Source: Chamaelirium japonicum (Eukaryota > Streptophyta > Magnoliopsida > Liliales > Melanthiaceae). Taken from it: 64,000 bases of DNA. The position numbers and the translations under genes are program-made. The stretch lies in the NCBI GenBank assembly GCA_947650365.1, contig OX393549.1:91619033-91683032 (forward strand), in the 5' to 3' direction. Shown one piece after another: positions 4,710 through 57,270 of the stretch. Below the pieces are notes generated by a model that was given only the letters and a program-made list of their open reading frames with translations, was not told the DNA's origin and searched no databases. Position 1 is the first letter of the stretch. The number at the start of each line of letters is the position of its first letter.

Positions 4710-7493
4710 TGTTGAGCGTCTATTTGGTGCAAATTATCCTTTCTTTTTCATGCACATATCGCCACTTTGCTATGTAAAACTTTCATAATACACGTAAACT
4801 GCATGAGTTTCTTTGTACCACGATATAGTAGACTCTCATACGAACCCAACGGCATATTGGTTCGCTCTCATACATTGCATGCATGAAAAATATGGATCCC
4901 GATAGTCCAAATTATCCTTTTATCGATAATCGTGTTTGAATCTGATAAGCGTCATTTCATGTGTGTTTTTCTGGGAATTGATCCGGTCTTCGATGTAGTC
5001 AGCTCAAGGACTTCATGACCAAGCCGTGGATATTCTCACAGCGATTTGAAAGAGGCTTTACAACCTGTTCGAAGGCCCTTCTGACGAAGGATGCAGAAAA
5101 GAGCAGTTGTTTGAGTCTGGCGATCCGACGTCACCAGCTCAACATATTTCTGGCTTCGGATCACTAAAGGACTATGCAAATACCAAGGACTTGATGAGTT
5201 CGAACAGCTCGGATGGTTACCTAAGCCTATCGTGTTCTTTTCTTTCAATCTTTCTCTAATTCCTTTAACTGATCCTCCCCTTTCTATGCCTCACAAGACC
5301 ATAGTCGTCCATTTCCTCGAAATCCCTCGTGATAAATACCATGTGATATCCATCATGCTTGCATGCATGCACGTACCCTCATTCCACCTGTACATGCACC
5401 TGATCCCCTCGCTGAGCCAAGCCTATGTACAGTCGTGCATCTAATTTACATACAACCCATGCATGCATGCATGTATTATCACAGCCATCTGGGATTCCTA
5501 CCCGATTCTCTCTATAGATCTAAATCCGGATCCCAGCTCTCTTTTCTCAAAATCAATCACAGTCGTCCCTCTCTCTTCTCTAGACTAATCACAGTCGTCC
5601 GTTGCAAACCCATCAATGCATGCACCCAATCACGGCCGCCCAAGCCTCGTCCCGACCGTCCAAACCCGGCTGTACCTATCCCTTCCATGCACATTCATGC
5701 ATGCATGAATGTGCCATGTTAAAAACCAGGCATTCGATCACAGTCGTCCAGTCCTCTCTTTCCATATCTCTCATTGTTTTTTTTCTCTTATCTTTCTCTA
5801 ATCCCAGCTGTCCAAGCCCATATAGTCGTCCGATACACCCACTCTCTCTCTCCCGTTTCTTTCTCTCCTTTCTCTCTCCGTAAACCTCCGCCTGGAATTC
5901 ACTCTCTCTATCTCTTTACCGTCTCTCTCTATCCCCCATTAATCACAGCAGTCCGATTTAACAACCCATGCATGCAGCCCCTTAAATCTCGATCGGTCCC
6001 AGCTGTACCCGATCGCCCTGCACCCATACGTTCTCTCTCTAAATCTCCAACCGATCTTCTCTCCCTCTCTAGCTAAAAACCTGATCCGATCACAGCCATC
6101 GCTTCAGTCCCCATTACGACCAATCCTGATTTCTCTGTCTATTTCCGAATCACAACCGTCCATTTTACCTGAGCCATGCACGTCCCCTCTCCGAAACCCT
6201 CTCTCTCTTGAACTCTCTCTCTATCTCTATCTCTTCTCTTCCCTATCTGGCCATCCCGTCCGTGTACCCATTCCCGTCCGCAGCCACGCAATAACCCGGG
6301 GCATCTCTATACATTTTCTCTCTAAAACAACCAACCTCTCTGTCCTATATAGGGGGGGATCCGAAACACCAAAGAGGGGGCAGCTTTGGACGACCGAACC
6401 ATCATCACCCACCTTTGCCATTTCCCACCTACGAAAAAAACACCCTAGCTCTCACCACAGAACACCATCCATCATCTTCCACATCCACCGGCCACCACCT
6501 TCCTTCAACCCATCATCAACATCATCATCTAGCTCCCTTCCCGCTACCATCCTCAACCGATCATCATTCACACAACCATCACCTCCAAAAACCCTAAACC
6601 TTCACATTCCGTCATCCATCGTATGAGCCATCGTACCATCGTCAACGACGTGCCGCAGCCGAGTCGAAGTGAAGGAACATCGATCGGAGAGGAGGACAAC
6701 GAAGATCAAAAGCATACTTCTATAATGATTTGTATCTTGTTCTTCCCATCTCTTACTTTTGATGTAGTGTGAACCATGATGAACTAAACACATTGCTAAG
6801 GCTTAGACGAAACCCCGGTTATAAATAATTATTAGGTTTATTTATATTGTCTATGCCATGTTCTTTAGTTTAAATATATGATTTAATTATCGGATTATTA
6901 CGATGGAAGTCTCTCACATAGTATGTCATGCATCATTTGTCGTTATGATGAATCATCGTATTAATCAATGCATGTTATTTAACAAAAATTTAGAATCTTG
7001 ATTAGTTGTGCTTTAGTTAGACATCTAATGCTCTGTTCTAATACATCTTTGTATGAGAATTGAATCATACATATGTCTTCAATCTAATTAAGAGTGTAAC
7101 AATTATATTTTCGAGTCGAGCACGGGATTTGTATTCCCGCATGCTACTCGTTCGCATAGATAAATCTAAATAAACCTAGTAACTACAAATAACCGAGGTG
7201 GATTCGACCGCCTTAGTACCTTCTCCACTTGGAACTCGACTTACCGTAACTTGTTTTTCTTCCTTTAATCAATTTGCTTTTAATCTCAAAACAAATCAAC
7301 TCTAATTAAAACTATCTTTTAAAGTAACTTAGGTAAATAATTAATAACCATAGATTAGATTGCTCCCCTCATTAGCAATCCCTGTGATATCGACCTCGTA
7401 ATATGCACCGCTCCTACAAGCGATTCGTGCACTTGCGAGTTATAATTTAAATCAAATTAACCCCTTAATTTAGGATTAGTTTAGATCGCATCA
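4710..7493 (+). mobile_element. Solo LTR, 2.8 kb, probable Ty3/gypsy family
   Basis: The segment starts TGTTGAGCG and ends GATCGCATCA, and is flanked by a perfect 5-bp target duplication CGAGC (4705-4709 and 7494-7498). It splits the integrase region of the Tat-like element. The last 120 bp (CCTGTGATATCGACCTCG, GTGCACTTGCGAGTT, ending GCATCA) resemble the 3' ends of long plant Ty3/gypsy LTRs, which sets the orientation. A TATA-like CCTATATAGG lies near 6346. No internal retroelement domain is visible between the duplications, so this is best read as a solo LTR left by LTR-LTR recombination. Confidence 0.8.
5300..6165 (+). promoter_or_regulatory. Repeated motif field upstream of the solo-LTR TATA box
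   Basis: About a dozen degenerate copies of RATCACAGYCGTCC are spread over this stretch (for example near 5560, 5588, 5736, 5941 and 6149), separated by CT-rich spacers. CATGCATG-type RY motifs recur near 5362, 5460, 5698 and 5968, including a perfect 22-bp palindrome at 5691-5712. RY motifs are known binding sites of plant B3-domain factors. A regulatory role in this LTR is inference. Confidence 0.5.
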
Positions 7494-7498
7494 CGAGC

Positions 7499-8760
7499 CA
7501 CAGATTTCGGCGTGTACTTCTTCCAGTACTGCTTCTGCTTCTCCTTTTGCGAGGCACCTCAGGAGCGTACCATCGTAACTTCGACGGTACAACTCATTAT
7601 TAAAGTGGGAGAACTTCAGAGACCGTCGGCGAATGTCGATTTTGCGCTTTGGATCATCGAGGAGCTTACCACGGACGAGATAATCCACGAAGGGTTGCCT
7701 TCAGTCTTGATCTTCAATTTTGAGGACGTGCACTGCGTTGGCTTGAACTGGAATCCCGACAGGGCTGTCTTCTTTGGTGATCACTGTTCTTATGCAGACA
7801 GGGACGATGAGCTGATATTCTTCTGAAAACGGGAGTATAGCCACCAAGTTTGCCAGCGCATCGGCCTGCTAGTTGAGGTTCCTGGGGACATGCTGAATAG
7901 AAGCATCCTCGAGTTTGCTGAAGAGTTCCAAAGCTTATGCATGCAGTGGCGTAAGGTTTTCCTTGTTGACCTCGTATGCTCCTAAGACTTGCTGGATGAC
8001 GAGCTGGGAGTCGCCGAAGATCTTGAGTCCTTGACGTTCTATATCGTTGGCGAGTTCGAGGTCGATGAGTAGAGCTTGATATTCCACCACGTTGTTAGAG
8101 CACGGTTCTGATAGTAGAAACAAGAAGGGGAGTATCTCATCGTTTGGAGTGACAAAGATAATCCCGGCTCCTGCTATTGTCTTGCCGCGCTATCAAAGAA
8201 CATCTTCCAGGAAGGGGTGACGTCGATGGAGAATACTTCTTCATCTGGGAGATCTTTTGATAGTTCCTATCCTGCCAGGAGAGGATATTCTGCAAGAAAA
8301 TCCACGAGAGCATGCCCTTTGACTGCCTTCTGTGGCACGAAGGTGATGTAAAACTTGAGGAGTAGTATCGCCTACTTCGTTAGATGTCCGTAGAGCACTG
8401 GTATTGACATGATGTATTTGAGGGGGTCGGCTTTCGAGATGAGTCGGACGGTGTGAGCCAGTATATAGTGTCGCGGCTTCTTTGTAGCGAAGATGAGTGC
8501 CAGTCAGACCTTCTCGATCGGGGAGTACTTTAGCTCGATCCGTCCATGAAAGTTAGCACTTCGTGGCCTGTCGTTGCGTCCACCATTAGCTCCGTGATTG
8601 GCAACGGAAAGTTGTCCTTTGGACATGCGTTGTTCAAGTCTCTAAAATCTACGCACACTCGGATTTGACCATTCTTCTTTTTGACTGGAACGACACTGGA
8701 GATTCATGTCGGGTACTTGACCACTCAGATAAAGCCGGCTTCAATTAGCTTGTTTACTTC
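7499..8760 (-). pseudogene. RNase H and reverse transcriptase region of the Tat-like element
   Basis: Minus-strand translation shows an RNase H-like segment near 7.9-8.2 kb (VEYQALLIDLELA, IFGDSQLVIQQV). A reverse transcriptase segment near 8.5-8.7 kb carries CVDFRDLNNACPKDNFPLP, the Ty3/gypsy RT signature. The part nearest 7.5-7.7 kb is the start of the integrase side. Fossil, broken. Confidence 0.75.
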
Positions 8761-9514
8761 GCCTTCTATTTGGGGTACCAGTTTCGGCCAGTAGTGTCTT
8801 TGTTCTTGCTTGATGGCGTTGGCTCCGTGTTTGACGCTGAGCTGGTGCACTGCAATTTTAGGATCGAGACCCGGTATCTCCTTGTAGAACCATGCAAAGA
8901 CGTCTCTATACTATCGGAGCAGTTTGATGTATGCAGTTTCTTCTTCTTCAGGTGTCAAGAGTGTGCTGACGAATGTAGGTCGAGGCTCCGTTTCTGTGCC
9001 CAAGTTTATTTCCTTCAAGTCATCAACGGTGAACTGCCCCCCTTCTTCGAGGACCGGCGGGGCTTCTTACAACTCGTCGTCCGAAGTAGAAGTATCACCG
9101 TTGTTTGATTCGATAATGGTGATATGATTGACGGCCGCCATGGGTGGGTGGGCAGGTGTTGAAACGGCGTTTCTAACTGGCATTCCCAAACGGTCGAACA
9201 CTGACTTCTTCTTTGCTTGTTTGATTGGCCGAGCCTTTCGAATACGGATGTATACTTTGAATTTGATTGGCTTTGACCGCTTCTCTTTCGCTTCTGGAGT
9301 ATGGCCCGATATTAGGCTCATCGCCTTCTTCCTTTAACTAACTTGCCATTGGGACGACCGGCATAGGTGGAGCGTGCATCGGAGATTGTCGATCTTTCAG
9401 CTGCTTCATCTACCATCTTCGCCCCAATATAGTTAGAGGTGAAGGTCTTCTTAGTTGCAATCTTGACGACTGTAACATCCACCCCAAACGCACAAGATAT
9501 TGTTCGCTTTGCCC

Positions 9515-9620
9515 GTGCCCGCACGAGAACTTTCCAGGGTGGTCACCCATCTTGGTACTACTCTCGCCCGAGCACGCTTAACTACGGAGTTCTTACAAAA
9601 TCTATAGCGGCGCACGGTTT
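9515..9620 (-). other. 5S rRNA-derived block in Cassandra copy 1, left LTR
   Basis: The minus strand shows the conserved 5S sequence AAGCGTGCTCGGGCGAGAGT and GGATGGGTGACC-like segments, which cover the internal RNA polymerase III control region. It is a piece of a Cassandra LTR, not a ribosomal gene. Confidence 0.85.
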
Positions 9621-9942
9621 TAAAATGCGTCTTCTATGTTTGGGAGGGGAAATTATATAAGTAGCTCAGGATCTCCTTCTCTCGAAGCGATGTGAGGCTA
9701 ACTCATGGCCTTGTACACCTTACCTCACCTCACATCACCTCACCTCATCTATCTTGGCATTCCCGCCTCAGGAGTCTTGGCTCTTGGCTATTGGCCTATT
9801 GGATCTTGGTCGTCACAATCCACCCCCCTTAGGGCTATACGTCCTCGTATAGGGTTAGACCCCCCCCATTGCGAGGAGAACCGACTCTGATACCATTTTG
9901 TAACATCCGTCCCAAACACACAAGATACTGTTCGCTTTGCCC

Positions 9943-10048
9943 GTGCCTGCACGAGGACTTCCCAGGGTGGTCACCCATCCTGGTACTACTCTCGCCCGAG
10001 CACGCTTAACTACAGAGTTTTTACAAAATCCATAGTAGCGCACGGTTT
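9943..10048 (-). other. 5S rRNA-derived block in Cassandra copy 1, right LTR
   Basis: Same 5S-like block as in the partner LTR, on the minus strand, including AAGCGTGCTCGGGCGAGAGT and the GGATGGGTGACCACC segment. It is embedded in the Cassandra LTR. Confidence 0.85.
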
Positions 10049-10235
10049 TAAAACGCGTCTTCTATGTTTGGGAGGGGAAATTATATAAGTAGCTCAAGAT
10101 CTCCTTCTCTCCAGGCGATGTGAGGCTAACTCATGGCCTTGTACACCTTACCTCACCTCATCCATCTTGGCATTCCCGCCTCAGGAGTCTTGGCTCTTAG
10201 CTATTGGCCTATTGGATCTTGGTCGTCACAACGAC

Positions 10236-22889: not shown

Positions 22890-23421
22890 TCACGCACAAC
22901 AAAGCACCAATGATGTCATGATATCGGGGGGTTTAACATGGGTTAAGTAATACGGCCCCATTGACCTAAAAAAGGAGGACATTGTTTCTGCACCCAAATT
23001 CTGATACTGATTTTTAAATCATGCGATAGAGGTTTAAGAAATTATTTTTGTGAGCATAATCATCATGTGTTAGATAACACATCTACAAAAAATAACACAT
23101 TCTAACACTTCTAAGCTTATCAAGCGTTCTTTTCAAATTAATGATTAAAACAAATAATCAATAAAGCCTTTTAGACTTGATGTGCTCAGAGGCTTTAGAA
23201 TGTACTAAGTGGATGTGCTATATAAGGCAAAGTGATTATGTGATGACTAAGATCTAAAAGCCAAGAGCTAAGACTTCTGAGACTGTGATGCTAAGATAGA
23301 TGAGGTGAGGTGAGGTGAGGTGTACATGACCACGAGCTAGTCACACATCTCCAAGAGAGAAAAAGATTTGGAGTTATTTATGTAATTTTTTCTCTCAAAT
23401 ATAGAAGACACGTTTAAAAAC

Positions 23422-23525
23422 CGTGCACTGTTACGAATTTCGTAAGAACTCTGAAGTTAAATTATGCTCGGGCGAGAGTAGTCCTAGGATGGTGACCCCC
23501 CTGGGAAGTTCTCGTGCGGGCACAG
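23422..23525 (+). other. 5S rRNA-derived block in Cassandra copy 2, 5' LTR
   Basis: Contains GAACTCTGAAGTTAAAT, GCTCGGGCGAGAGTAGT and GGGAAGTTCTCGTG, recognisable as the 5S rRNA internal promoter region. It is part of the LTR and not a rRNA gene. Confidence 0.85.
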
Positions 23526-23823
23526 GTAAATCGGATAATATCTTGTGTGTTTGGGGCGGATGTTACAAAATGACATCATATCCGGTTCTCCTCGTAATGG
23601 GGGGGGTCTAACCCTACACGTGGACGTGTAACCCTTAAAGGAGGTGGATTGTGACGACCAAGATCTAATAGCCAAAAGCCAAGACTCTTGAGGCTGTGAT
23701 GCCAAGATGGATGAGGTAAGGTGTATAAGGCCACGAGTTAGCCCCACATCACCTGGAAAGAAGGAGATCATGAGCAACTTATATAGTTTCTCCACTCAAA
23801 CATATAAGGCGCGTTTTAAATTT

Positions 23824-23930
23824 GTGCGCCGTTACGGATTTCGTAAGAACTCCGAAGTTAAGCGTGCTCGGATGAGAGTGTCCTAGGATGGGTGGCCCCC
23901 CTGGGAAGTTCTCATGCAGGTGCGGGCACG
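23824..23930 (+). other. 5S rRNA-derived block in Cassandra copy 2, 3' LTR
   Basis: Contains GAACTCCGAAGTTAAGCGTG and GGATGGGTGGCCCCC. It is 5S-like and better conserved in the first half than its partner in the 5' LTR. Confidence 0.85.
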
Positions 23931-24135
23931 TGCAAAGCGGACAATATCTTGTATATTTGGGGCGGATGTTACAGATTACACTCGCAAAAAATCAACAACT
24001 TTTGAAACCTCTATCTAATGATTTAAAATCAGTGTAAAAATTTGAGTGCAAAAACAATATCCCCTGAACTTTAAAATCGGTGTAAAAATTTGAGTGTAAA
24101 AACAATGTCCCCTGATCTTAACCCAAGTCGTGATC

Positions 24136-32866: not shown

Positions 32867-34047
32867 ATGGGCTCCGGATCTTTTCTCAAGGTCGTGGCCA
32901 AAAACTTCGATGTTCTTGCCGGGTATGCATCCGTTCCCCCCCCCCCCCCCCCCCACTCTCGTGATCTTTCTTCCCCTAATTTACCAAAGTTTTTTTTTTC
33001 TCCGGTAATTTGATGCATATAAATTTTTAGGGTTTTGTTGTTCCTTTACCTTGCTTGATCCGAAATTTTGAGGAATGCTTTTTTTTTCTTCCTTATTTCA
33101 GTGTAATCTGTGTTTTTCCTTTTAATCTAAATCACATATTTTATGTGATTTAATCCAAGTATTTTCGTGGGTTTGTCTTGTTTTATATTTTTATGTAAGA
33201 TTTTTGGGAAATCACATAGTGACGTATTTGGAGATTCTTTAATCACTCCCCTTCTTCACTAGATTGACCCTGTTTCAGTTTCTTCTAGTCAGTTGTTGAT
33301 TAAAAGGTATAAAACTTCTGTCACACAATGGAAGTAATTTCTGCTTGAAAGGAACAAACAAACTCGAAGCGGGTTTTAACCTAATAAATTAGAAATCGGC
33401 TGCTTACCAGGCAAATGGTGATGGAAACTCCACACACACACACGCATGCGCACACACACACACACGCACACACACGCACACACATACACACACACTTATC
33501 TCTTGCCAAACCTCTTCAATAGTGCTTACGACCAGTCTTACAATAGCCTCTCAATTCAGACTATTAGCTGGCAAAAGCGAGGTTCATGGATAATTTTGGA
33601 ACATAGAGAACGCACGTAATGTCAGTCTATCACTAGGGCCGGAGCAAGAGGTAATAGGACACTGCAATATAGGTAAAATAGACCAGTCGACAGTTTGAAT
33701 GTGCAAAGAAGGGACGGAGGTGCGATCAGTGAGAGTGGAGGCATCATATGTCATATGTTGGGTAACTCCAAAGTCTAACATCCAAGAGATACCAGAGGCG
33801 ACAATTGACGTAAGCGGTGTCGCAAGAACCCGTGGTAAAGTGTTGGACGGACATCATGCATCCGCTGGGCAAGCTGCTCTATGGAAGGTTGCTAAGACGA
33901 AGAGTAGGGTGACACCTCTGGGTAGGTGGCATCAACATTAGATCATGGGGTGCAAGTCTGATCAATTGAGGGACATGATTGCTGCTTCTTCAGCCCCTTG
34001 GTGCATCCCACATTCGGAAGTCCTGGATATCGATAGTAGTAATCAAT

Positions 34048-34088
<41 letters not shown>

Positions 34089-37000
34089 CCGCACGCCCGC
34101 ACACTTTCTTATCTCTTGCCAAACCTCTTCAATAGTGCTTACGACCAGTCTTACAATAGCCTCTCAATTCAGACTATTAGCTAGCAAAAGTGAGGTTCAT
34201 GTATATTTTTGGAACATAGAGAACGCACGTAATGTCAGTCTACCACTAGGGCCGGAGCAAGAGGTAATAGGACACTGCAATATAGGTAAAATAAACCAGT
34301 CGACAGTTTGAATGTGCAAAGAAGGGACGGAGGTGCGATCAGTGAGAGTGGAGGCATCATATGTCATATGTTGGGTAACTCCAAAATCTAACATCCAAGA
34401 GATACCAGAGGTGACAATTGACGTAAGCGGTGTCGCAAGAACCCGTGGTAAAGCATTGGACGGACATCATGCATCCACTGGGCAAGCTGCTCTATGGAAG
34501 GTTGCTAAGACGAAGAGTAGGGTGACACCTCTGGGTAGGTGGCATCAACATTAGATCATGGGGTGCAAGTCTGATCAATTGAGGGACATGATTGCTGCTT
34601 CTTCAGCCCCTTGGTGCATCCCACATTCGGAAGTCCTGGATATCGATAGTAGTAATCAATGGGTGCACGAGTGTCGGGCTGTGATCTAGCTGGAGGGTGA
34701 GAAGCAGCTGACATAAGAACCGCCTTTGATTCGGTGGTAGCAGATGGATCAGAATCTGATCAGGGTGTGCATACGAGTCTCTTGCGCCACAAGCTATGAA
34801 AGAGTGATCTCCATGTGAGGCCGAGGATCCCGATCGAGTAGCTGTCCTTGAAGAGGCTCGAACTCATGACGAAGGCACAATAGGAACCAAATAATCGATG
34901 GAGTTGACAACGATCACAGTACTGTTGGTACTCGAGCTGAACCGAGGAAGGAAGAATTGGTTCAAGCTCATGTTCCATGGTTGAAAGCTCATGCCAAAAA
35001 CTTTTGAACGGATCACTCACATGCTGAGCGCCATGACAGCGACATAGCAGCTGGTACTCTTGCGCTGCACTACGCTGTACGAAAAGTGCGAGGTACAAGC
35101 ATTTGTCATGAGCCCTTGGAAAGTTCGTCGTGTGAGTGCAAAAAGATGACCTGAGCTTGAAAATACATCATGTAAGAGCAGAGCCTATTGTGGAGTCGAA
35201 GCCACTCAACAGAAGTAGAGCATGCCAACATCCAGTGCAGACTGCAGTAGTTGAACCATGACCAACAGTAGTCGTGATGGACCTGGTGGTACCCGTGGAG
35301 ATAGATGCACAAAGATATTTCGGCTCTGGATCAGTGTCGTTGATGTCGCCCCACATGTCGCAACTGATCAAAATATCTTGAACTGTAACTGGCCAAATGG
35401 GCCCAACATTGGAGAGCTGGATGTCTATATTTGAGAGGAAGTTTCAACCATAGGACACACCATGGGCTTCAGACAACGATGCCATTACACAGAAGATTCG
35501 TGCTTAGGCGAGCAAGGCATGTGAACAATGTTGTTTGCGAGCAAGTTGTGTGGGTAATGCGTGCGAGTAATGATGTGCGATGCACGAAACGGAGATGTGG
35601 TGAAGCGTGATGCAGAAGATGACGCAAAACAAAGGCCTGACTCGAGATCGAAGCTTGAACGACTAAATATAGAAATGGAAGGTAATAATCGCGACACTTG
35701 GCCATTTCACCAAACAATTGATGTGCTCCATTTGAGTCTTGCATGGGAGTCACAACCAATGCAAATCACCTAGGGGCAATCGCACAAAGGGGGTTGAAGC
35801 TCACAAATGCTCGTCAAATAGCTCTTAGCAATCACTGAAAAGGAGTTGGCGAGCTCACAAATGGGTTTGAGGCTTGAATCGGTTGATCCATGGCGACGAA
35901 AGTAGCTCTAATACCATACTAGGGTTTGTAGAATGCTCGGTTGTAATACATGGGGGCAATGACCCAATATATCAAGTGGTGGTGTGAGTCCACCAAATAC
36001 AAGTGTATTCGCCCTTTCACTAGCCTACATATACATGAGATACATACAAGTATCTCTAATAAGGTTCAATGCACACCAAAATTCAAAATAGCTTTAACTA
36101 GTGATCTACTTCGGGTGGCCTTTACTTTGCTCAACATAGGATAAAGTTACTTCCATCCGTCAGTGAAGATCAGATCTTTGAGAACAACAAAACTTATTCT
36201 TTCAAATCCCTCTATAATATCCTCCCTTTTTGTGGTGATACATGGCTATTCTACAGACAACTCCGGAGTTTTCTATCTCCCACTAAGATCCTATGACTGC
36301 TCACTTGAGATAATACCTTACAGTCGACAACCTAGACCAGCTATGCATTTGGTTGAATCAATCCCGCCTTGTATGTTTGAAGGCCAAGACTATTGTTAAT
36401 CTATTCCGCAAATTCACAGTGATTCACCCTCTGGGAGATCATGTATATGCGAATCCATGGTAATAGAGGTTTCCCTAGAACTATTAAATCTCTATGGTCT
36501 AGAGAGAGCTCATGATCAGTAGGTCAAAGAAGAAAGACCAAGTCATAGATTCCACAACCTTGCTATGAGAAACTTGGATAGAGAGAAATGCCATAATTTT
36601 TTCTAACTACTCCAAGCAGACTCAACAACTTTCGTATTCCTTCCTCTTCTTCTCTACTCTATGGGCAAGTTCTCATTAGTTGAAACCGTCATCTTGGATG
36701 ACTAAGATTACTGTGTATTCACTGGCATCAACACGACAAATATACCACGTTTTAGCCCTAAGGGACTCTGTTTTGTAAAAGTGGTTTGCATTATACCTTT
36801 CTCTAAACCTGAGTATGGTCTAGTGAAAGAATCTGCCTTTGCCCTCACCTTTTTTAATTTCTTAATTATGTTACTTAGCTGATATAGTGTCTCGACCCCC
36901 AAATTGAACTTCAGCCTTTGATACACAAATTGGGGTTTGCCTAACCTTTATCCAATATGGATGCAATTTCCTTAAACTTTGTTGTACGAAAGTACTTCTT

Positions 37001-44773: not shown

Positions 44774-44924
44774 TGACCATACTCAACTATCATGAAGTAA
44801 ACCGATAAAAAAAAAGCTTGGAGTCTAAAGTAGCAATGTGGGTCCCACATGAAAGTCTATGAAGTAGTGGACCCTATAGGTAATAAGTGGGAATGGTCAA
44901 ATCATTGATTGCAACCTCAGGTAT

Positions 44925-45222
44925 TTTTTTGATAATCAAGATACACTACAACGACCGAGAAGAAAAACAACACTTGGGGTAGGGACAAGCCCTTGTCTCC
45001 TCAACAACAGGCATATGCTAACATCCTATAGAGCCAAATCACGTAGTGGAACATGAAAACCATAGAACCAAACTTCGTCACACACCTCGATGAAGTGCCA
45101 TCCCAGCAAGCCAATCAGCTACACCTTTGCCTTCTCGAAAAACATGAGTCACTCGATGATCCCCGAAGAGGCGATGAAGACGTCGATAGTCCTCCATGAG
45201 GGGGCACTCCAGCAAACTGAGT
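44925..45222 (-). mobile_element. LINE 3' fragment
   Basis: Begins (plus strand) with a T run and resembles the tail of plant L1 elements. It shares the ATACACTACAACGACC / AARAAAAACAACA layout with the start of the larger LINE next to it. It is probably a separate 5'-truncated insertion in the same orientation. Confidence 0.4.
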
Positions 45223-45292
45223 TTTATTTTGTTGGTAGACAAAACTACACTAAAACCAAAAAGAAAAACACAACATCACACCCTTTACCAAC

Positions 45293-45799
45293 TCAGCCAG
45301 GATTGTGGATAAGACGAAGCCAGTAGGTCCTCGCCCGATCCTGAAGCAGTATATGTCGAAACTCCTGAAGAGAAGTGTCCCATAGTAAGTGGCTCTGAGC
45401 CATATGGCAGCCATAGTTAGCTAGGAAGTAAGCAATTTGATTTGCCTCCCGATATATGTGTCCGATCTGCCCATAAGAAGTATGGCTAAAAAGAGACCGA
45501 CATTTATGCATAACTGGATCACCAAAATCAAGATTTTGCAATGAATTTATAACGACCTGGGAATCTCCCTCAATCCGGACCGGTTGTGGGGCAAAGTAAG
45601 ACGAATAACATTGAAGCCCAAATAGTAGGGCTAGCTTCTTCGCGACAAAGGAAGAAGTAGTATGAAGAGGCCTACAACCAACTAGTAATAGAGAACCTGT
45701 AGTATCACGAACGACAAAACCATAGCCAGAACAAGACAAGAGGGGATGCACCGAACCATCAAAGTTAAGAGATATGACCCAGTTGGTGGGGGTTCCCAT
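45293..45799 (-). pseudogene. LINE RNase H domain
   Basis: A 168-residue open stretch with plant L1 RNase H landmarks: NFDGS (residues 12-16), GYGFVVRD, EGDSQVVI, HIYREANQIAYFLA. The usual catalytic Glu of AExxAL reads K (AKKLALLFGL) and the usual Asp in REANxxADxLA reads Y. Two of the expected acidic residues are therefore lost and the domain should be inactive. Confidence 0.8.
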
Positions 45800-45946
45800 T
45801 GGACACCAACAAAGGTAGTCCTCCGCAACCTCTGCTGAGTTCGACCGAGATTATTGTTCGCCACATAAGAGTAAATTAAAGATACGATGACCCACACAAT
45901 CAAAATGTTTCATGCAACCTTCAAAAACCAACGTGTTTCGACTCTT

Positions 45947-46275
45947 TCAAATGGCCCATAAGGTTGTCAGCATAAATCCAAGCAATCGACGATTTGTACT
46001 TGGGCTAAGAAGAGGGAAGGAATTAACCTGTCGGATAAGTTCACCCAGGTTTGAAATAACGGGGAAATCAATTTGACCTTTGTTGAATACGCAATTCCAA
46101 ACCACCTGATCATACTCACACATAAACAAAACATGGTTAATGTTCTCAACCTCAAAAAGGTACCATGGCCAAGCAAGTACTGAAATTTGGAAGCCAATGC
46201 GATGTAGGTATTCTTTGGTGGGTAGGTTTTTGTGGAACAATTTTCACCCAAAGCATTGAACTCTAGGAGAAGCAT
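45947..46275 (-). pseudogene. LINE zf-RVT (zinc-binding RT-associated) segment
   Basis: Minus-strand reading shows NLPTKEYLHRIGFQ, then ENINHVLFMCEYDQVVWN, the rlpT...L and HxxxxC...vW pattern of the zf-RVT domain that follows RT in plant LINEs. Only part of the cysteine set is visible. It is interrupted from RT by stops. Confidence 0.75.
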
Positions 46276-46582
46276 CAGCTTTCTAAAGTGCCTGCCAAGG
46301 CCTGATAATCAGAGGTAGCTCACCAGATGTAACTAGAGTATAAGCTTCACGAATAGTGACCATTGCTTTCCCAGTTGGGGCCCAAATCAACGGCCATCTT
46401 GGTGTGTTGGAAAAAATGAGAATTGAGATAATAATACTGCTCCAATATGAAGAGAAGATGTCTAGAACCAGCTCTTGATTCTAGATTCCATCCGCTAGCA
46501 TCAAGTCAGAAATCAAGACTAACCCCTCAGTTAGTTACATATTGAGAGTAATGGGGAGAAAAGCAAAAGGAATTTGGCTCGC

Positions 46583-48430
46583 TCAAGCAACAGTCCATAA
46601 GTTGAACGAAGCCGTTTTCCAGACCAAGTGAATGGGGTGCGCTTTAACATAAGGTAATCCAGGTCTCAACGCTGGCCAAAGCCATGAGCATTGTTTACTA
46701 GAGTGCCAATCCCACAAGTTGTTAGACAACTTGTATTTGTCAAAACAAAAACACCGCCATAAGCTATGTGGATCGTTAAGCATATCAAAAATCCATTTGA
46801 TCATAACAACTAGCTGAAATTTATCCAATTGACGAACACCAAGCCCCCCAAGTGCCACCGGCTAACAAACGGTAGCCCAGTTAATCAGATGAAGACCATT
46901 CATCGTGGAAGATTTAGGCCATAAAAACCGACACAATTCTTTCTTAACAAGGGATGTGAGAGAAGTTGGTACCCAACTGTGAGAAAAGAGAAACAGTGGA
47001 ATAACAGATAATGTGTATTTGATCAAGGTAATCCGATCAAAAAAAGATAAGGATCAGGCTTTCCATCCAGTCAATTTAGTGAGCACCTTTGAAACAATTC
47101 CCATCAAATCCTTAGCAAATAGCTGCTTACCCGAGATCGGTATGCTGAGGTATTGAAGATGTCTCATACACTCCTTAATCCCATAATGTGAAGATAGCAG
47201 ATGACGTTAAGTGAGACACATTTTTTCCACAAATCACTGAAGACTTGGCGAAATTAATAGCTTGACCGGAAGCATTCTCATATCAGAGGAAAATACGAAA
47301 CATTGTTTCAATATGCGCCGAAGAGTCTCGAGAAAACACCAACATGTCATCGGCAAAGGATAACGCCCTAAGAGGATTTGCATTCCTCTTGGCCTTAATC
47401 CCCACAAGGTGATCGTATTCTTGAGCTTGAATAATGTTGCGGTTAAGGACATTTGCCCCAAGAATAAACAAGTAAGGTGAAAGGGGGTCCCCCTGACGAA
47501 GCCCTCTCTCAGAATTAAACCAAGGTGATGGAGTACCATTGAGTAAAATAGAGAACGAAGGAGAGCTGATGCAAGCTTGAATCCAAGATATCCATTGAGT
47601 GGCAAATCCATAACGACAGAGTACCCGATAAAGAAACTCCCAATTCATACGATCATAGGCCAAAGCCATGTCTAATTTGAAAGCCAACATATGCTTGTTG
47701 AGGTGTCAATATTCCATGGAATGAAGAATCTCTTATGCGAGCATAATATTCTCAGAAATATTTCGCCCTTTAATGAAAGCAGATTGCTCATTTGTAATTA
47801 GTTTTGGCATAACTAGCTATAGCCGATTAATGAGGAGCTTTGCAACAATTTTATACAATACCGTGCATAAGCTAATTGGATGATAATGTTCCGGTCTAGA
47901 AGCTTCAACCATTTTAGGAAGTAAAAACAATAAACATAGTCTTTCATTATGTAGGCATGTGATTGGTGAGAAAGAATTCCTTGATAGCATTAGTCACTTT
48001 CCCTCCAATGATATGCCAATTGGTAATGTAAAAATCAGCTATATATCTGTCTGAACCTGGCGCTTTGTTATGAGCCATACCACAAAGGGTACCTTTGATT
48101 TCAGAGGAGGAAACATGTTTCAATAGGCCTACTGTTGTCCTCCACAGAAAATGATAGGAGGGACTGGGTCCAGTAAGGCCTCATCACTCAACCCCCAGGG
48201 GACTGCCATTTGGACTTAAAGTATCGTATGAAAATAACTTTCATACCTTCTAGATCAGTTGTGGCATCATGCTCCCCGTCACATAAAGAATAAATACAAT
48301 TATACTTTCGCCGAATGATGGTGGATCGATTAAAAAACTTTGTATTCCTATCTCCTTCTTGTAACCATTGAACTCAACATTTTTGCCTCCATTTGAGTTC
48401 AATTAAGCTTTAATAATTATGGTAGGATGC
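46583..48430 (-). pseudogene. LINE reverse transcriptase
   Basis: Landmarks on the minus strand: an EGDRNTKFFNRSTIIRRK-like segment near 48.3-48.4 kb, KLDMALAYDRMNWEFLY (near 47.65 kb), GLRQGDPLSPYLFILGANVL (near 47.46-47.51 kb), SFADDMLVFSRDS (near 47.33-47.37 kb) with the catalytic ADD, and GGLGVRQL (near 46.85 kb). Frames change between blocks, so the ORF is broken. Confidence 0.88.
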
Positions 48431-48454
48431 TATCAGCTGACGAAGTTGATGATT

Positions 48455-51400
48455 CTCTTCCACAAACAATTCAGTTGAAATTTTCTGCACTTGAAGTTGA
48501 GGAATGTGGGAATGGATACTACTTAGCCGATGTTCCAACTGACCAATAGTTTCTCGGTTCCATGTCGCAATTGTCGATTTAAGAGAGCATAAGAAAAAAT
48601 GAAGATGCCGAACTGGAGGGTATCTACTCGAATTCTCCTACCAAACAGAAGCTATAAATCGAGACGAGTTAGGATGTCGTAACCAAAAATGATCGAACCA
48701 AAAAAGTCGAGTCCCAAATTGTAAGGACGGAGATCAATCTATCAAAAGAGGGCAATGATCCGAAGCTACCCTTCCCAAGTGTTGAACTTGAGTTTTAGGG
48801 AAAGTATTTAACCAGTGATTATTAGCAAATTCCCGATCGAGTCGTTCCAGGATATGATGGTGACAACTTTGTTGGTTGCTCCAAGAAAATAGCGCACTTG
48901 AGAAGCCAAGATCAACCAAATCATTATAAAAGATAAATTGACGGAACTCATCTACGGCCACTTCAACAATGAAAGGTTTTCCACCCATCATACCTCATGA
49001 AATAATAGCATATTAAAGTCACCCGCCAACAGAATGGGAAATGGTAATGAGTTGAGAGCGGCCAGTAACGACCAAAGTGACCTACGCTCAGAAAGAGAGG
49101 TAGCAACATAATTGCCAGCAAAGAGAAGTAATTGTTTCTGTTTATCAAGAATAATTCAGTTGAAATTTTCTCTTCCACAAACAATTCAGTTGAAATTTTT
49201 TGCACTTGAAGTTGAGGAATATGGGAATGGATACTAGTTAGCCGATGTTCCAACTGACCAATAGTTTCTCGGTTCCATGTCGCAATTGTCGATTTAAGAG
49301 AGCATAAGAAAAAATGAAGATACCGAACTGGAGGATATCTACTCGAATTCTCCTACCAAACAGAAGCTATAAATCAAGACGAGTAAAGATGTCGTAACCA
49401 AAAATGATCGAACCAAAAAAGTCGAGTCCCAAATTGTAAGGACGGAGATCAATATATCAAAAGAGGGCAATGATCCGAAGCTACCCTTCCCAAGTGTTGA
49501 ACTTGAGTTTTAGGGAAAGTATTTAACCAGTGATTATTAGCAAATTCTCGATCGAGTCGTTCCAGGATATGATGGTGACAACTTTGTTGGTTGCTCCAAG
49601 AAAATAGCGCACTCGAGAAGCCAAGATCAACCAAATCATTAGAAAAGATAAATTGACGGAACTCATCTATGGCCACGTCAACAGTGAAAGGTTTTCCACC
49701 CATCTTAGCTCATGAAATAATAGCATATTAAAGTCACCCACCAACAGAATGGGAAATGGTAATGAGTTGAGAGCGGCCAGTAACGACCAAAGTGACCTAC
49801 GCTCAGAAAGAGAGGTAGCAACATAATTGCCAGCAAAGAGAAGTAATTGTTTCTGTTTATCAAGAATAATTCAGTTGAAATTTTCTCTTCCACAAACAAT
49901 TCAGTTGAAATTTTCTGCACTTGAAGTTGAGGAATATGGGAATGGATACTAGTTAGCCGATGTTCCAACTGACCAATAGTTTCTCGGTTCCATGTCGCAA
50001 TTATCGATTTAAGAGAGCATAAGAAAAAATGAAGATACCGAACTGGAGGGTATCTACTCGAATTCTCCTACCAAACAGAAGCTATAAATCGAGACGAGTT
50101 AGGATGTCGTAACCAAAAATGATCGAACCAAAAAAGTCGAGTCCCAAATTGTAAGGACGGAGATCAATCTATCAAAAGAGGGCAATGATCCGAAGCTACC
50201 CTTCCCAAGTGTTGAACTTGAGTTTTAGGGAAAGTATTTAACCAGTGATTATTAGCAAATTCCCGATCGAGTCGTTCCAGGATATAATGGTGACAACTTT
50301 CTTGGTTGCTCCAAGAAAATAGCGCACTCGAGAAGCCAAGATCAACCAAATCATTAGAAATGATAAATTGACGGAACTCATCAACGGCCACGTCAACAGT
50401 GAAAGGTTTTCCACCCATCTTACCTCATGAAATAATAGCATATTAAAGTCACCCGCCAACAGAATGGGAAATGATAATGAGTTGAGAGCGGCCAGTAACG
50501 ACCAAAGTGACCTACGCTCAGAAAGAGAGGTAGCAACATAATTGCCAGCAAAGAGAAGTAATTGTTTCTGTTTATCAAGAATAATTCAGGTGAAATTTTC
50601 TCTTCCACAAACAATTCAGTTGAAATTTTCTGCACTTGAAGTTGAGGAATATGGGAATGGATACTAGTTAGCCGATGTTCCAACTGACCAATAGTTTCTC
50701 GGTTCCATGTCGCAATTGTCGATTTAAGAGAGCATAAGAAAAAATAAAGATACCGAACTGGAGGGTATCTACTCGAATTCTCCTACCAAACAGAAGCTAT
50801 AAATCGAGACGAGTTAGGATGTCGTAACCAAAAATGATCGAACCAAAAAAGTCGAGTCCCAAATTATAAGGACGGAGATCAATCTATCAAAAGAGGGCAA
50901 TAATCCGAAGCTACCCTTCCCAAGTGTTGAACTTGAGTTTTAGGGAAAGTATTTAACCAGTGATTATTAGCAAATTCCCGATCGAGTCGTTCCAGGATAT
51001 GATGGTGACAACTTTGTTGGTTGCTCCAAGAAAATAGCGCACTCGAGAAGCCAAGATCAACCAAATCATTAGAAAAGATAAATTGACGGAACTCATCTAC
51101 GGCCACGTCAACAGTGAAAGGTTTTCCACCCATCTTACCTCATGAAATAATAGCATATTAAAGTCACCCGCCAACAGAATGGGAAATGGTAATGAGTTGA
51201 GAGCGGCCAGTAACGACCAAAGTGACCTACGGTCAGAAAGAGAGGTAGCAACATAATTGCCAGTAAAGAGAAGTAATTGTTTCTGTTTATCAAGAATAAT
51301 TCAGTTGAAATTTTCTCTTCCACAAACAATTCAGTTGAAATTTTCTGCACTTGAAGTTGAGGAATATGGGAATGGATACTAGTTAGCCGATGTTCCAACT

Positions 51401-54400
51401 GACCAATAGTTTCTCGGTTCCATGTCGCAATTGTCGATTTAAGAGAGCATAAGAAAAAATAAAGATACCGAACTGGAGGGTATCTACTCGAATTCTCCTA
51501 CTAAACAGAAGTTATAAATCGAGACGAGTTAGGATGTCGTAACCAAAAATGATCGAATCAAAAAAGTCGAGTCCCAAATTGTATGGACGAAGATCAATCT
51601 ATCAAAAGAGGGCAATGATCCGAAGCTACCCTTCCCAAGTGTTGAACTTGAGTTTTAGGGAAAGTATTTAACCAGTGATTATTAGCAAATTCCCGATCGA
51701 GTCGTTCCAGGATATGATGGTGACAACTTTGTTGGTTGCTCCAAGAAAATAGCGCACTCGAGAAGCCAAGATCAACCAAATCATTAAAAAATATAAATTG
51801 ACGGAACTCATCTACGACCACGTCAACAGTGAAAGGTTTTCCACCCATCTTACCTCATGAAATAATAGCATATTAAATTCACCCGCCAACAGAATGGGAA
51901 ATGGTAATGAGTTGAGAGCGGCCAGTAACGACCAAAGTGACCTACGCTCAGAAAGAGAGGTAGCAACATAATTGCCAGCAAAGAGAAGTAATTGTTTATG
52001 TTTATCAAGAATAATTCAGTTGAAATTTTCTCTTCCACAAACAATTCAGTTGAAATTTTCTGCACTTGAAGTTGAGGAATATGGGAATGGATATTAGTTA
52101 GCCGATGTTCCAACTGACCAATAGTTTCTCGGTTTCATGTCGCAATTGTCGATTTAAGAGAGCATAAAAAAAAATGAAGATACCGAACTGGAGGGTATCT
52201 ACTCGAGTTCTCCTACCAAACAGAAGCTATAAATCGAGACGAGTTAGGATGTCGTAACCAAAAATGATCGAACCAAAAAAGTCGAGTCCCAAATTGTAAG
52301 GACGGAGATCAATCTATCAAAAGAGGGCAATGATCCGAAGCTACCCTTCCCAAGTGTTGAACTTGAGTTTTAGGGAAAGTATTTAACCCGTGATTATTAA
52401 CAAATTCCCGATCGAGTCGTTCCAGGATATGATGGTGACAACTTTGTTGGTTGCTCCAAGAAAATAGCGCACTCGAGAAGCCAAGATCAACCAAATCATT
52501 AGAAAAGATAAATTGACGGAACTCATCTACGGCTACGTCAACAGTGAAAGGTTTTCCACCCATCTTACCTCATGAAATAATAGCATATTAAAGTCACCCG
52601 CCAACAGAATGGGAAATGGTAATGAGTTGAGAGCGGCCAGTAACGACCAAAGTGACCTACGCTCAGAAAGAGAGGTAGTAACATAATTGCCAGCAAAGAG
52701 AAGTAATTGTTTCTGTTTATCAAGAATAATTCAGTTGAAATTTTCTCTTCCACAAATAATTCAGTTGAAATTTTCTGCACTTGAAGTTGAGGAATATGAG
52801 AATGGATACTAGTTAGCCGATGTTCCAACTAACCAATAGTTTCTCGGTTCCATGTCGCAATTATCGATTTAAGAAAGCATAAGAAAAAATGAAGATACCG
52901 AACTGGAGGGTATCTACTCGAATTCTCCTACCAAACAGAAGCTATAAATCGAGACGAGTTAGGATGTCGTAACCAAAAATGATCGAACCAAAAAAGTCGA
53001 GTCCCAAATTGTAAGGACGGAGATCAATCTATCAAAAGAGGGCAATGATCCGAATCTACCCTTCCCAAGTGTTGAACTTGAGTTTTAGGGAAAGTATTTA
53101 CCCAGTGATTATTAGCAAATTCCCGATCGAGTCGTTCCAGGATATGATGGTGACAACTTTGTTGGTTGCTCCAAGAAAATAGCACACTCGAGAAGCCAAG
53201 ATCAACCAAATCATTAGAAAAGATAAATTGACGGAACTCATCTACAGCCACGTCAATAGTGAAAGGTTTTCCACCCATCTTACCTCATGAAATAATAGCA
53301 TATTAAAGTCACCCGCCAACAGAATGGGAAATGGTAATGAGTTGAGAGCGGCCAGTAACGACCAAAGTGACCTACGCTCAGAAATAGAGGTAGCAACATA
53401 ATTGCCATCAAAGGGAAGTAATTGTTTCTGTTTATCAAGAATAATTCAGTTGAAATTTTCTCTTCCATAAACAATTCAGTTGAAATTTTCTGCACTTGAA
53501 GTTGAGGAATATGGGAATGGATACTAGTTAGCCGATGTTCCAACTGACCAATAGTTTCTCGGTTCCATGTCGCAATTGTCGATTTAAGAGAGCATAAGAA
53601 AAAATGAAGATATCGAACTGGAGGGTATCTACTCGAATTCTCCTACCAAACAGAAGCTATAAATCGAGACGAGTTAGGATGTCGTAACCAAAAATGATCG
53701 AACCAAAAAAGTCGAGTCCCAAATTGTAAGGACGGAGATCAATCTATCAAAAGAGGGCAATGATCCGAAGCTACCCTTTCCAAGTGTTGAACTTGAGTTT
53801 TAGGGAAAGTATTTAACCAGTGATTATTAGCAAATTCCCGATCGAGTCGTTCTAGGATATGATGGTGACAACTTTGTTGGTTGCTCCAAGAAAATAGCGC
53901 ACTCGAGAAGCCAAGATCAACCAAATCATTAGAAAAGATAAATTGACGGAACTCATCTACGGCCACGTCAACAGTGAAAGGTTTTCCACCCATCTTACCT
54001 CATGAAATAATAGTATATTAAAGTCACCCGCCAAAAGAATGGGAAATGGTAATGAGTTGAGAGCGGCCAGTAACGACCAAAGTGACCTACACTCAGAAAG
54101 AGAGGTAGCAACATAATTGCCAGCAAAGAGAAGTAATTGTTTCTGTTTATCAAGAATAATTCAGTTGAAATTTTCTCTTCCACAAACAATTCAGTTGAAA
54201 TTTTCTGCACTTGAAGTTGAGGAATATGGCAATGGATACTAGTTAGCCGATGTTCCAACTGACCAATAGTTTCTCGGTTCCATGTCGCAATTGTCGATTT
54301 AAGAGAGCATAAGAAAAAATGAAGATACCGAACTGGAGGGTATCTACTCGAATTCTCCTACCAAACAGAAGTTATAAATCGAGACGAGTTAGGATGTCGT

Positions 54401-56305
54401 AACCAAAAATGATCGAACCAAAAAAGTCGAGTCCCAAATTGTAAGGACGGAGATCAATCTATCAAAAGAGGGCAATGATCCGAAGCTACCCTTACCAAGT
54501 GTTGAACTTGAGTTTTAGGGAAAGTATTTAACCAGTGATTATTAGCAAATTCCCGATCGAGTCGTTCCAGGATATGATGGTGACAACTTTGTTGGTTGCT
54601 CCAAGAAAATAGCGCACTCGAGAAGCCAAGATCAACCAAATCATTAGAAAAGATAAATTGACGGAACTCATCTACGGCCACGTCAACAGTGAAAGGTTTT
54701 CCACCCATCTTACCTCATGAAATAATAGCATATTAAAGTCACCCGCCAACAGAATGGGAAATGGTAATGTGTTGAGAGCGGCCAGTAACGACCAAAGTGA
54801 CCTACGCTCAGAAAGAGAGGTAGCAACATAATTGCCAGCAAAGAGAAATAATTGTTTCTGTTTATCAAGAATAATTCAGTTGAAATTTTCTCTTCCACAA
54901 ACAATTCAGTTGAAATTTTCTGCACTTGAAGTTGAGGAATATGGGAATGGATACTAGTTAGCCGATGTTCCAACTGACCAATAGTTTCTCGGTTCCATGT
55001 CGCAATTGTCGATTTAAGAGAGCATAAGAAAAAATGAAGATACCGAACTGGAGGGTATCTACTCGAATTCTCCTACCAAACATAAGCTATAAATCGAGAC
55101 GAGTTAGGATGTCGTAACCAAAAATGATCGAACCAAAAAAGTCGAGTCCCAAATTGTAAGGACGGAGATCAATCTATCAAAAGAGGGCAATGATCCGAAG
55201 CTACCCTTCCCAAGTGTTGAACTTGAGTTTTAGGGAAAGTATTTAACCAGTGATTATTAGCAAATTCCCGATCGAGTCGTTCCAGGATATGATGGTGACA
55301 ACTTTGTTGGTTGCTCCAAGAAAATAGCGCACTCGAGAAGCCAAGATCAACCAAATCATTAGAAAAGATAAATTAATGGAACTCATCTACGGCCACGTCA
55401 ACAGTGAAAGGTTTTTCACCCATCTTACCTCATGAAATAATAGCATATTAAAGTCACCCGCCAACAGAATGGGAAATGGTAATGAGTTGAGAGCGGCCAG
55501 TAACGACCAAAGTGACCTACACTCAGAAAGAGAGGTAGCAACATAATTGCCAGCAAAGAGAAGTAATTGTTTCTGTTTATCAAGAATAATCCAGTTGAAA
55601 TTTTCTCTTCCACAAACAATTCAGTTGAAATTTTCTGCACTTGAAGTTGAGGAATATGGGAATGGATACTAGTTAGCCGATGTTCCAACTGACCAATAGT
55701 TTCTCGGTTCCATGTCGCAATTGTCGATTTAAGAGAGCATAAGAAAAAAATGAAGATACCGAACTGGAGGGTATCTACTCGAATTCTCCTACCAAACAGA
55801 AGCTATAAATCGAGACGAGTTAGGATGTCGTAACCAAAAATGATCGAACCAAAAAAGTCGAGTCCCAAATTGTAAGGACGGAGATTAATCTATCAAAAGA
55901 GGGCAATGATCCGAAGCTACCGTTCCCAAGTGTTGAACTTGAGTTTTAGGGAAAGTATTTAACCAGTGATTATTAGCAAATTCCCGATCGAGTCGTTTTA
56001 GGATATGATGGTGACAACTTTGTTGGTTGCTCCAAGAAAATAGCGCACTCGAGAAGCCAAGATCAACCAAATTATTAGAAAAGATAAATTGACGAAACTC
56101 ATCTACGGCCACGTCAACAGTGAAAGGTTTTCCACCCATCTTACCTCATGAAATAATAGCATATGAAAGTCACCCGCCAACAGAATGGGAAATGGTAATG
56201 AGTTGAGAGTGGCCAGTAACGACCAAAGTGACCTCCGCTCAGAAAGAGAGGTAGCAACATAATTGCCAGCAAAGAGAAGTAATTATTTCTGTTTATCAAG
56301 AATAA
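48455..56305 (-). repeat. Eleven-copy 715-bp tandem array of a LINE endonuclease segment
   Basis: Unit starts fall at 48455 + 715n (n = 0 to 10), the last unit ending at 56305. In the LINE's own direction each unit encodes the endonuclease from INRNNYFSLLA through PILLAGDFN, GFSSALFSW, ILERLDREF and SDHCPLLID to the linker LEHRLTSIHSHIPQLQVQK. Units differ at only a handful to about fifteen positions each, all scattered. 715 is not a multiple of three, so the array cannot be read through in one frame. At each junction a 16-17 bp direct repeat (TTCAGTTGAAATTTTCT) brackets CTTCCACAAACAA, the likely breakpoint. Confidence 0.97.
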
Positions 56306-56605
56306 CGCCAATAACTGCTGGGCGATTTCTAGAGATAAAAGCCATTTTACAATTCTCCATTCTCCATAAAACCAAGATACCACTTGAGCGACCGGAAGCT
56401 TCAATACAAAAAAACGACCACTTGCGGCCAATCTGAGAAGTCACCCACGAGGCCGCTCTAGCACACAAGTGAGTTTCCACAAGACAAAATAGATAAAATG
56501 GTTGAGTCCTCATCAGGAAACAACAATGGTTCAGACAAACCTTCTTCTTAGCACCCCGATAGGGGTCATCTAAAGAACTATGAAAGTCTCACTAGAATCA
56601 TCTTG
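56283..56605 (-). pseudogene. LINE endonuclease N-terminal part
   Basis: Reads NHCCFLMRTQPFYLFCLVET, HLCARAASWV, then EASGRSSGILVLW and RPAVIGVI, the first third of an L1 AP-endonuclease with the catalytic ET pair in LVETHL. It leads directly into the eleventh repeat unit. Confidence 0.8.
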
Positions 56606-57270
56606 CTTCCTGCGTTTTTTGACCTGTAGAGTCACTAAGCTCCCCTTGAACATTTTCACTAGAACCTGTCTCGGCATTAGCCTCTGATCGAGCAGGCATC
56701 TCCGATTGCAAAGGCTCCTTCTCCAGAACCACCTGGACTTTGAGAAGTAATAGCCTATGAGCCGCCAAATCGGATGTTGTCATAGGGTCAGATGTCGATG
56801 GATTTCTGGACACTGAGCGGTGACCCCTCTTTTGTCTCCCCTAGGAGCTACGCCCGCCAGACGACGGTTGACCAGCTTGGTCACCATCGTGATTGGGAGA
56901 AGCAGAGAAAAACATCTTAGGGATAGTTGGACTCGTATCTGACACCAGCCTAGGATCATTATCATGTTGGAATAGTGGACCATCGTACACAACGACATTC
57001 CTAGTCTCCAAAGCATCTATAGACACCGTACGTAGTAGCCGTAGTTTTGCTGGAAGACACAGTGAGTGGGTCCTTGGCTTCCCAATGTTATTACGAGGCA
57101 AAGGAATAGATGCCCGACTGGCAGGATTTAGAGGAAATGCTGGACCTGGAACCCCCGAGCCACTTAACGGTGGATCATCATTTTTTCCCAACTGTAGCAA
57201 CCTCAGTTGTTGGAGCCCAATGCTTCAACAGCTGTTGGAGTTGAGTATTGTTCCCCAAAATATTATTAAT

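Follow-up and report, generated by a model that had tools for sequence, protein, structure and literature searches.

How does a tandem array come into being inside a retrotransposon, and when should it be regarded as a satellite? The birth of arrays is hard to observe, since satellites, once established, have erased the traces of it. The question is raised by a locus of Chamaelirium japonicum (Melanthiaceae), in a window of 64,000 nucleotides (the whole stretch of DNA analysed; assembly GCA_947650365.1, contig OX393549.1, positions 91,619,033 to 91,683,032) which holds a long interspersed nuclear element (LINE) with eleven 715-bp units lying in tandem inside its second open reading frame (ORF2). 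An initial description of this DNA, made from the letters alone (hereafter, the sequence-only reading), took the array for the beginnings of a satellite family. According to the data presented here, it looks like a one-off amplification that stopped, and not like an established satellite family.

Structure of the array

Comparison of the window with itself by BLAST gave direct-repeat diagonals at 715, 1430 ... 7150 bp, spanning positions 48453-56305 with identities of 97.3-97.9%, and alignment of the units placed their starts at 48457 + 715k. The eleven head-to-tail copies inside ORF2 described by the sequence-only reading are thus confirmed, as is its exact period with a single 1-bp exception: the ten junction copies are spaced by exactly 715 bp, and the exception is an A added at alignment column 138 of the last unit (U11), the sole change of length within any unit. 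U11 itself measures 699 bp and does not contain the terminal 17 bp present at all ten internal junctions. The earlier wording that the copies are nearly identical holds as far as they are about 97.7% alike, but identical they are not, any two of them differing at 10-24 positions in the unit alignment (mean 16.1 of about 715). The array went unreported by TRF, run on 40-64 kb, because the longest period of this program (500) is below 715. No inverted repeat was found in the interval searched, 48300-49300.

The position of the array within the LINE was established by tblastn with the ORF2 of a relative (L013) from the same genome. Residues 35-174 fall at 56558-56139, the units beginning at residue 119, and residues 176-1406 run from 48985 down to 45296 in pieces that overlap or are slightly gapped. 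The left edge of the array is crossed by residues 176-440, with the reverse transcriptase (RT) and RNase H regions lying further left. The remainder of the LINE is therefore in order on both sides of the array, as had been claimed. According to this mapping, the unit comprises the C-terminal half of the endonuclease (EN) together with the EN-RT linker (by calculation, about residues 119-353); its previous designation as an endonuclease segment was right for the first of these parts and left out the second.

The founder junction and its templated filler

The left edge of the array reads GATGATTCT followed directly by CTTCCACAAAC, and the right edge AAGAATAA followed by CGCC. At the junctions between units, AAGAATAA is followed by TTCAGTTGAAATTTTCT and this by CTTCCACAAAC; some copies show single point changes. 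The 17-nt filler thus inserted is identical to unit positions 14-30 and, since four of its bases, TTCT, are found immediately before the left edge as well, the net insert is 13 of the 17 nt. It is common to 10 of the 10 junctions, and therefore all of them descend from one event. A shuffled 13-mer had an exact copy at 100 bp or less from the breakpoints in 5 of 100,000 trials. Both switches are accompanied by microhomology, AA at the first (AANAA with one mismatch) and TTCT at the second.

Three relatives of the LINE (L009, L010 and L011) were compared with this region. The filler is absent from L009 and L011, and the L010 match stops short of the right edge. Within the stretch that served as source, several bases differ in each of the three. 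Given these differences and the lack of filler in L009 and L011, this very LINE copy is its most likely template.

An insert templated from the flank and bounded by microhomology, such as the one found here, is a feature of polymerase theta scars. Templated insertions have been called a smoking gun for this polymerase, and in A. thaliana they are described as frequent, up to about 35% (cited sections of PMC12426944). The founder junction was most likely made by end joining of the polymerase-theta kind, the form of the scar being what points to the enzyme.

Order of events and age of the array

A 1-bp deletion is present in 11 of the 11 units, while L009 and L011 retain the base and the L010 match ends about there. 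Two stop codons in the old frame are likewise found in all eleven, and neither exists in L009 or L010; L011 likewise lacks the first, and where the second would stand it has a gap. Moreover, there are 35 sites at which the compared relatives agree with one another but not with the unit consensus, and at 34 of them the relatives' base is kept by no unit. Judging from these lesions, the LINE had been inserted and was dead before amplification, because a frameshift and two stops, absent from the closest relative, were already present in the common ancestor of the units.

The divergence between L009 and the units amounts to 13.3-15.1%, against about 2.3% between units. This difference supports an array much younger than the split from its nearest relative (about 14%), in agreement with the earlier proposal that the amplification is recent compared with the LINE. 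At the plant rate of 1.3e-8 per bp per year quoted in PMC11288735, its age would be very roughly 0.9 million years, to be taken as an order of magnitude only.

The same data bear on the idea that template jumping by the reverse transcriptase of the inserting LINE produced the array. LINE reverse transcriptases can switch templates, which speaks for such an origin. However, the frameshift and stops already carried by the unit ancestor, and a divergence between units far below that from the relatives, argue that insertion most likely preceded amplification, and template jumping is scarcely credible here.

Mutations in the units and mode of growth

The units have undergone 90 substitution events at 83 sites, with per-unit counts of 5-13 (mean 8.2) that are as even as a Poisson process would give (index of dispersion 0.80, P 0.63). 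Changes in one unit only account for 76 of the 83 variable sites, and the seven others were hit twice. Of these seven, 5 are shared in the same state, against 4.6 expected on a star tree on which mutations fall independently at the observed context rates (P 0.50). The distance between units shows no rise with their separation along the array (Mantel r = 0.0, P 0.49). Models in which growth extends over the whole age of the array seldom leave seven or fewer non-singleton sites (P 0.004 for a coalescent, 0.0006 for a Yule process). As for later events, whole-unit replacements after the burst have a P of 0.049 for three and 0.095 for two, and three or more of them are disfavoured. A short burst, whose speed we infer, is the best fit to these figures and not a proof; the star tree is also compatible with rolling-circle amplification through extrachromosomal circular DNA (eccDNA).

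The spectrum of the mutations is strongly biased, 56 of the 90 changes being C>T or G>A. Per site, these changes reach 1.8% (CG), 2.6% (CHG) and 1.6% (CHH), whereas all others together amount to 0.43%. This suggests long-lasting methylation in all contexts, as expected of a silenced element. The bias also argues that the units are real and old, and not assembly noise.

An assembly artefact would mean that the true copies are fewer and that a unit was repeated by the assembler. It is true that the array is known here from the assembly sequence alone. Nevertheless, an assembler that repeated a unit would leave exact copies, and systematic errors in the reads would return at fixed sites, whereas each unit departs from the majority by 5-13 changes, nearly all variable sites are private to one unit, and the changes are mainly C>T or G>A spread across CG, CHG and CHH sites. 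Thus, assembly error is an unlikely source of the array, and we give it very little probability.

Distribution in the genome and satellite status

The window lies on C1 of a 1.52-Gb genome that has 28 chlorophyll a/b-binding matches and is therefore photosynthetic (of 14 control genomes, one, a cyanobacterium, matched as well); its size and the type of LINE likewise point to a plant. A search of this genome with the unit gave at least 20 matches, namely the 11 of the array and 9 dispersed single pieces of 68-87% identity. No second array was found among the matches listed; these counts are lower bounds, and the assembly may miss unassembled arrays. The closest relative among these matches, L009 (C3), has a single unit and is continuous through both edges. 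When a 30-nt stretch over the unit junction was searched allowing up to 3 mismatches, it occurred 10 times genome-wide, always within the array, and a reversed-pattern control gave 0. The ten occurrences, which include the junction filler, lie at 715-bp steps (eight exact, two with one mismatch).

Of the features by which satellites are recognised, the array presents head-to-tail tandem units. It does not extend to long arrays with many units or to several loci, since there are eleven units and the junction occurs only here. Neither does it show concerted evolution, with homogenised units and shared variants, given the star tree and the lack of correlation between distance and position. The array thus lacks two features of a satellite family, spread and homogenisation. 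In the sequence-only reading, the amplification in place of an internal LINE segment and its recent date are supported; the notion of an early stage of such a family is supported only in part, there being no sign of spread or of homogenisation.

It could still be argued that the array is an early and active satellite stage. A head-to-tail array of retrotransposon origin recalls the published satellites derived from retrotransposon-internal repeats (in the sections of PMC7004042 cited). Yet the array occupies one locus, its ten junctions have no counterpart within 3 mismatches elsewhere in the assembly, and homogenisation is not seen among its units, so that an incipient satellite family is an improbable interpretation.

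Proposed origin of the array

Taking these results together, the explanation that we consider likely is that a dead LINE was broken, repaired through theta-type templated joining into a founder duplication or circle, rapidly expanded, and then frozen. The break would have occurred in a LINE copy whose reading frame was already lost. Error-prone end joining, most likely by polymerase theta, would have linked the ends of a 702-bp internal segment head-to-tail and, before joining, 13 bases would have been copied from a template lying some 13 bp into it, either switch taking place at a short microhomology. The product may have been a founder tandem duplication or a 715-bp circle, an intermediate that we infer. 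The founder would then have given rise to eleven units in a time probably short relative to the mutations accumulated since, either by rolling-circle replication plus homologous re-insertion, or by quick unequal sister-chromatid exchange. Later, the array would have been frozen, its units mutating largely independently, mostly from C to T and with little exchange, for very roughly 0.9 million years. These data do not discriminate between a rolling circle and unequal exchange, and we put their odds as nearly even. There is no indication of a function for the array in this analysis.

Several points weigh against a theta-initiated burst. Growth by block duplication during the first 50% or 70% of the age of the array gives P values of 0.145 and 0.065, respectively, and, of the values tried, only 90% of the age falls below 0.05 (P 0.045); early growth in a small number of blocks is compatible with these results. 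At window position 48607 (alignment column 152), U1 has G like all three relatives, the other ten units having A, which may reflect a reversion or hint at U1 having been the first to split off. Microhomology-mediated replication restart could produce an identical scar, and repair of stalled forks, cited as another route to tandem arrays (PMC7004042, section cited), would yield much the same structure. Finally, the age depends on one assumed rate.

Some of these points favour stepwise unequal sister-chromatid exchange alone, a route contained within the explanation proposed above, in which a founder duplication is enlarged by crossovers adding blocks of units and no circle is formed. It needs no such intermediate, a few early block steps, in the first half of the age, fit (P 0.145), and U1 alone retains the ancestral base at one site. 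On the other hand, the variants lack nested sharing, there is no neighbour effect, and little later exchange is seen, though eleven copies about 97.7% identical would invite it. We regard this route as a serious candidate with a chance somewhat short of even.

More tentatively, the array may have been born in one step, from a 715-bp circle closed by polymerase theta, copied about ten times by rolling-circle replication and returned to the same dead LINE in a single homologous recombination event, with hardly any exchange since; this we consider possible but rather doubtful. If it were true, amplification and homogenisation would be separate processes, and a new array could start complete and then decay.

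The host LINE and other features of the window

The coordinates of the features described are collected in Table 1.

Table 1. The host LINE, the array and its junctions in window coordinates
Feature	Position	Strand	Basis
Host LINE copy, plant L1 type, ends approximate	44921..57196	-	RVT_1, RVT_3, tblastn order
RNase H-like domain RVT_3 of ORF2	45296..45850	-	Pfam PF13456, E 1e-16
Reverse transcriptase fragment RVT_1 of ORF2	47286..47705	-	Pfam PF00078, E 4.1e-16
Array, eleven 715-bp units (EN C-terminal half + EN-RT linker)	48453..56305	-	Self-BLAST, unit alignment, ORF2 mapping
Unit U1, left edge, holding the original left breakpoint; microhomology TTCT at 48453-48456	48457..49171	-	
Filler source (TTCAGTTGAAATTTTCT) as found in U1	48470..48486	.	
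Templated junction filler, first of ten copies, 17 nt (13 net), others at +715 steps	49155..49171	.	
Unit U11, right edge, without filler, continuing directly into the LINE; extra A at column 138	55607..56305	-	
ORF2 residues 35-174, N-terminal endonuclease, right flank into U11	56139..56558	-	tblastn, 68.6% identity

The relative used for the mapping, L013 (G000:C1:103.27 Mb), has an unbroken frame of 1406 amino acids containing PF03372, PF00078, PF13966 and PF13456, that is, the endonuclease, reverse transcriptase, zf-RVT and RNase H-like domains. The stretch L013:4153-8370 contains this open ORF2 and a 596-aa frame upstream, in which DUF4283 and a zf-CCHC_4 match slightly below its cut-off were detected. 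The presence of the four ORF2 domains in this order is what we take to be the mark of plant L1 elements, and the window copy is collinear with that ORF2.

In the window itself, single-frame Pfam searches did not convincingly identify EN, the match being weak (E 0.052, below cut-off; query peptide typed by eye), and a 7tm_6 match (E 0.0023), below its own cut-off, was set aside. The LINE copy is probably 5'-truncated within ORF1, since its similarity to L009 stops at 57182. A 10-bp sequence, GCAACCTCAG, occurs at 44911 and at 57197, beside a T-run, and may be a target-site duplication that would mark the ends of the element; these ends are tentative because, by estimate, such a search should yield a few chance matches of 10 bp.

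Other repeats involving this LINE family were observed. On C12 (31105374-31144764), its 3' half occurs four times within 40 kb, and in L030 (G000:C12:31104000-31113900) about 3 kb including the 3' half is directly repeated 4.4 kb apart, the copies being 94.9% alike. In L010 (G000:C4:51234700-51244500), a LINE tail of about 1.55 kb (6146-7684) is directly repeated 2.1 kb away (8249-9801), 91.8% alike, the second copy reaching the end of the fetched stretch.

Elsewhere in the window there are a separate 613-bp tandem duplication (33438-34663; two copies 96% alike, junction within a (CA)n run), a dispersed repeat in inverted orientation (9471-10231 and 23239-23974; about 80% alike and containing a direct duplication of its own), and an integrase core (rve) on the minus strand (4165-4650), presumably from a long terminal repeat (LTR) retrotransposon.

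Comparison with known systems

LINE ORF2 satellites and retrotransposon-internal arrays are already known, and the value of this locus is the legibility of its origin. Still readable are the parent element, the two original breakpoints, a relative with one unit, the scar of the founding event and the mutations that each unit acquired on its own, so that joining, expansion and subsequent decay can be told apart. Furthermore, a shared templated junction combined with a star tree offers a template for genome scans, from which the frequency of burst-born arrays dying before the satellite stage could be obtained.

In animals, satellites derived from LINE ORF2 are on record, namely PROsat in Phodopus roborovskii, Pvc 20 in Phoca vitulina and HinfI/SCR1 from chicken CR1 (sections cited of PMC9659126). 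They resemble the array in being tandem units with LINE ORF2 sequence, but they are named satellites, whereas here a single 11-unit plant array is still inside its parent element. The plant cases in the table of PMC9659126 come from LTR and DNA elements, with no plant LINE row. In the titles and abstract starts of the papers listed by the literature searches, no plant LINE-derived satellite or array was found, which is no proof that none is in print, and the relevant sections of the spinach study PMC6337768 describe none. Celine of poplar is likewise a plant LINE, and a possible regional amplification has been mentioned for it from fibre fluorescence in situ hybridisation; however, its clusters are centromeric, and no unit, junction or tandem array is resolved in the part of PMC11288735 that describes them.

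With regard to the mechanism, the filler resembles the short inserts copied from the flank and primed by minimal base pairing that have been attributed to polymerase theta end joining (PMC12426944, as cited above). Unlike those scars, the one described here, probably left by that enzyme, marks the founding join of a tandem array. Plant eccDNA derived from satellites (PMC2543021, sections cited) provides a likeness for the circular intermediate that would explain a burst, although those circles come from established satellites and were attributed to homologous recombination.

Lastly, it is accepted that plant satellites can be seeded by arrays inside retrotransposons, as illustrated by the Ogre-derived satellites of Lathyrus sativus, in which short arrays of this kind play that role (PMC7004042, sections cited). 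The Ogre arrays lie in the 3' untranslated region of LTR elements and have been proposed to form during element replication. In contrast, the array of Ch. japonicum lies in former coding sequence, in a dead copy and at one site, and its junction is repair-like.

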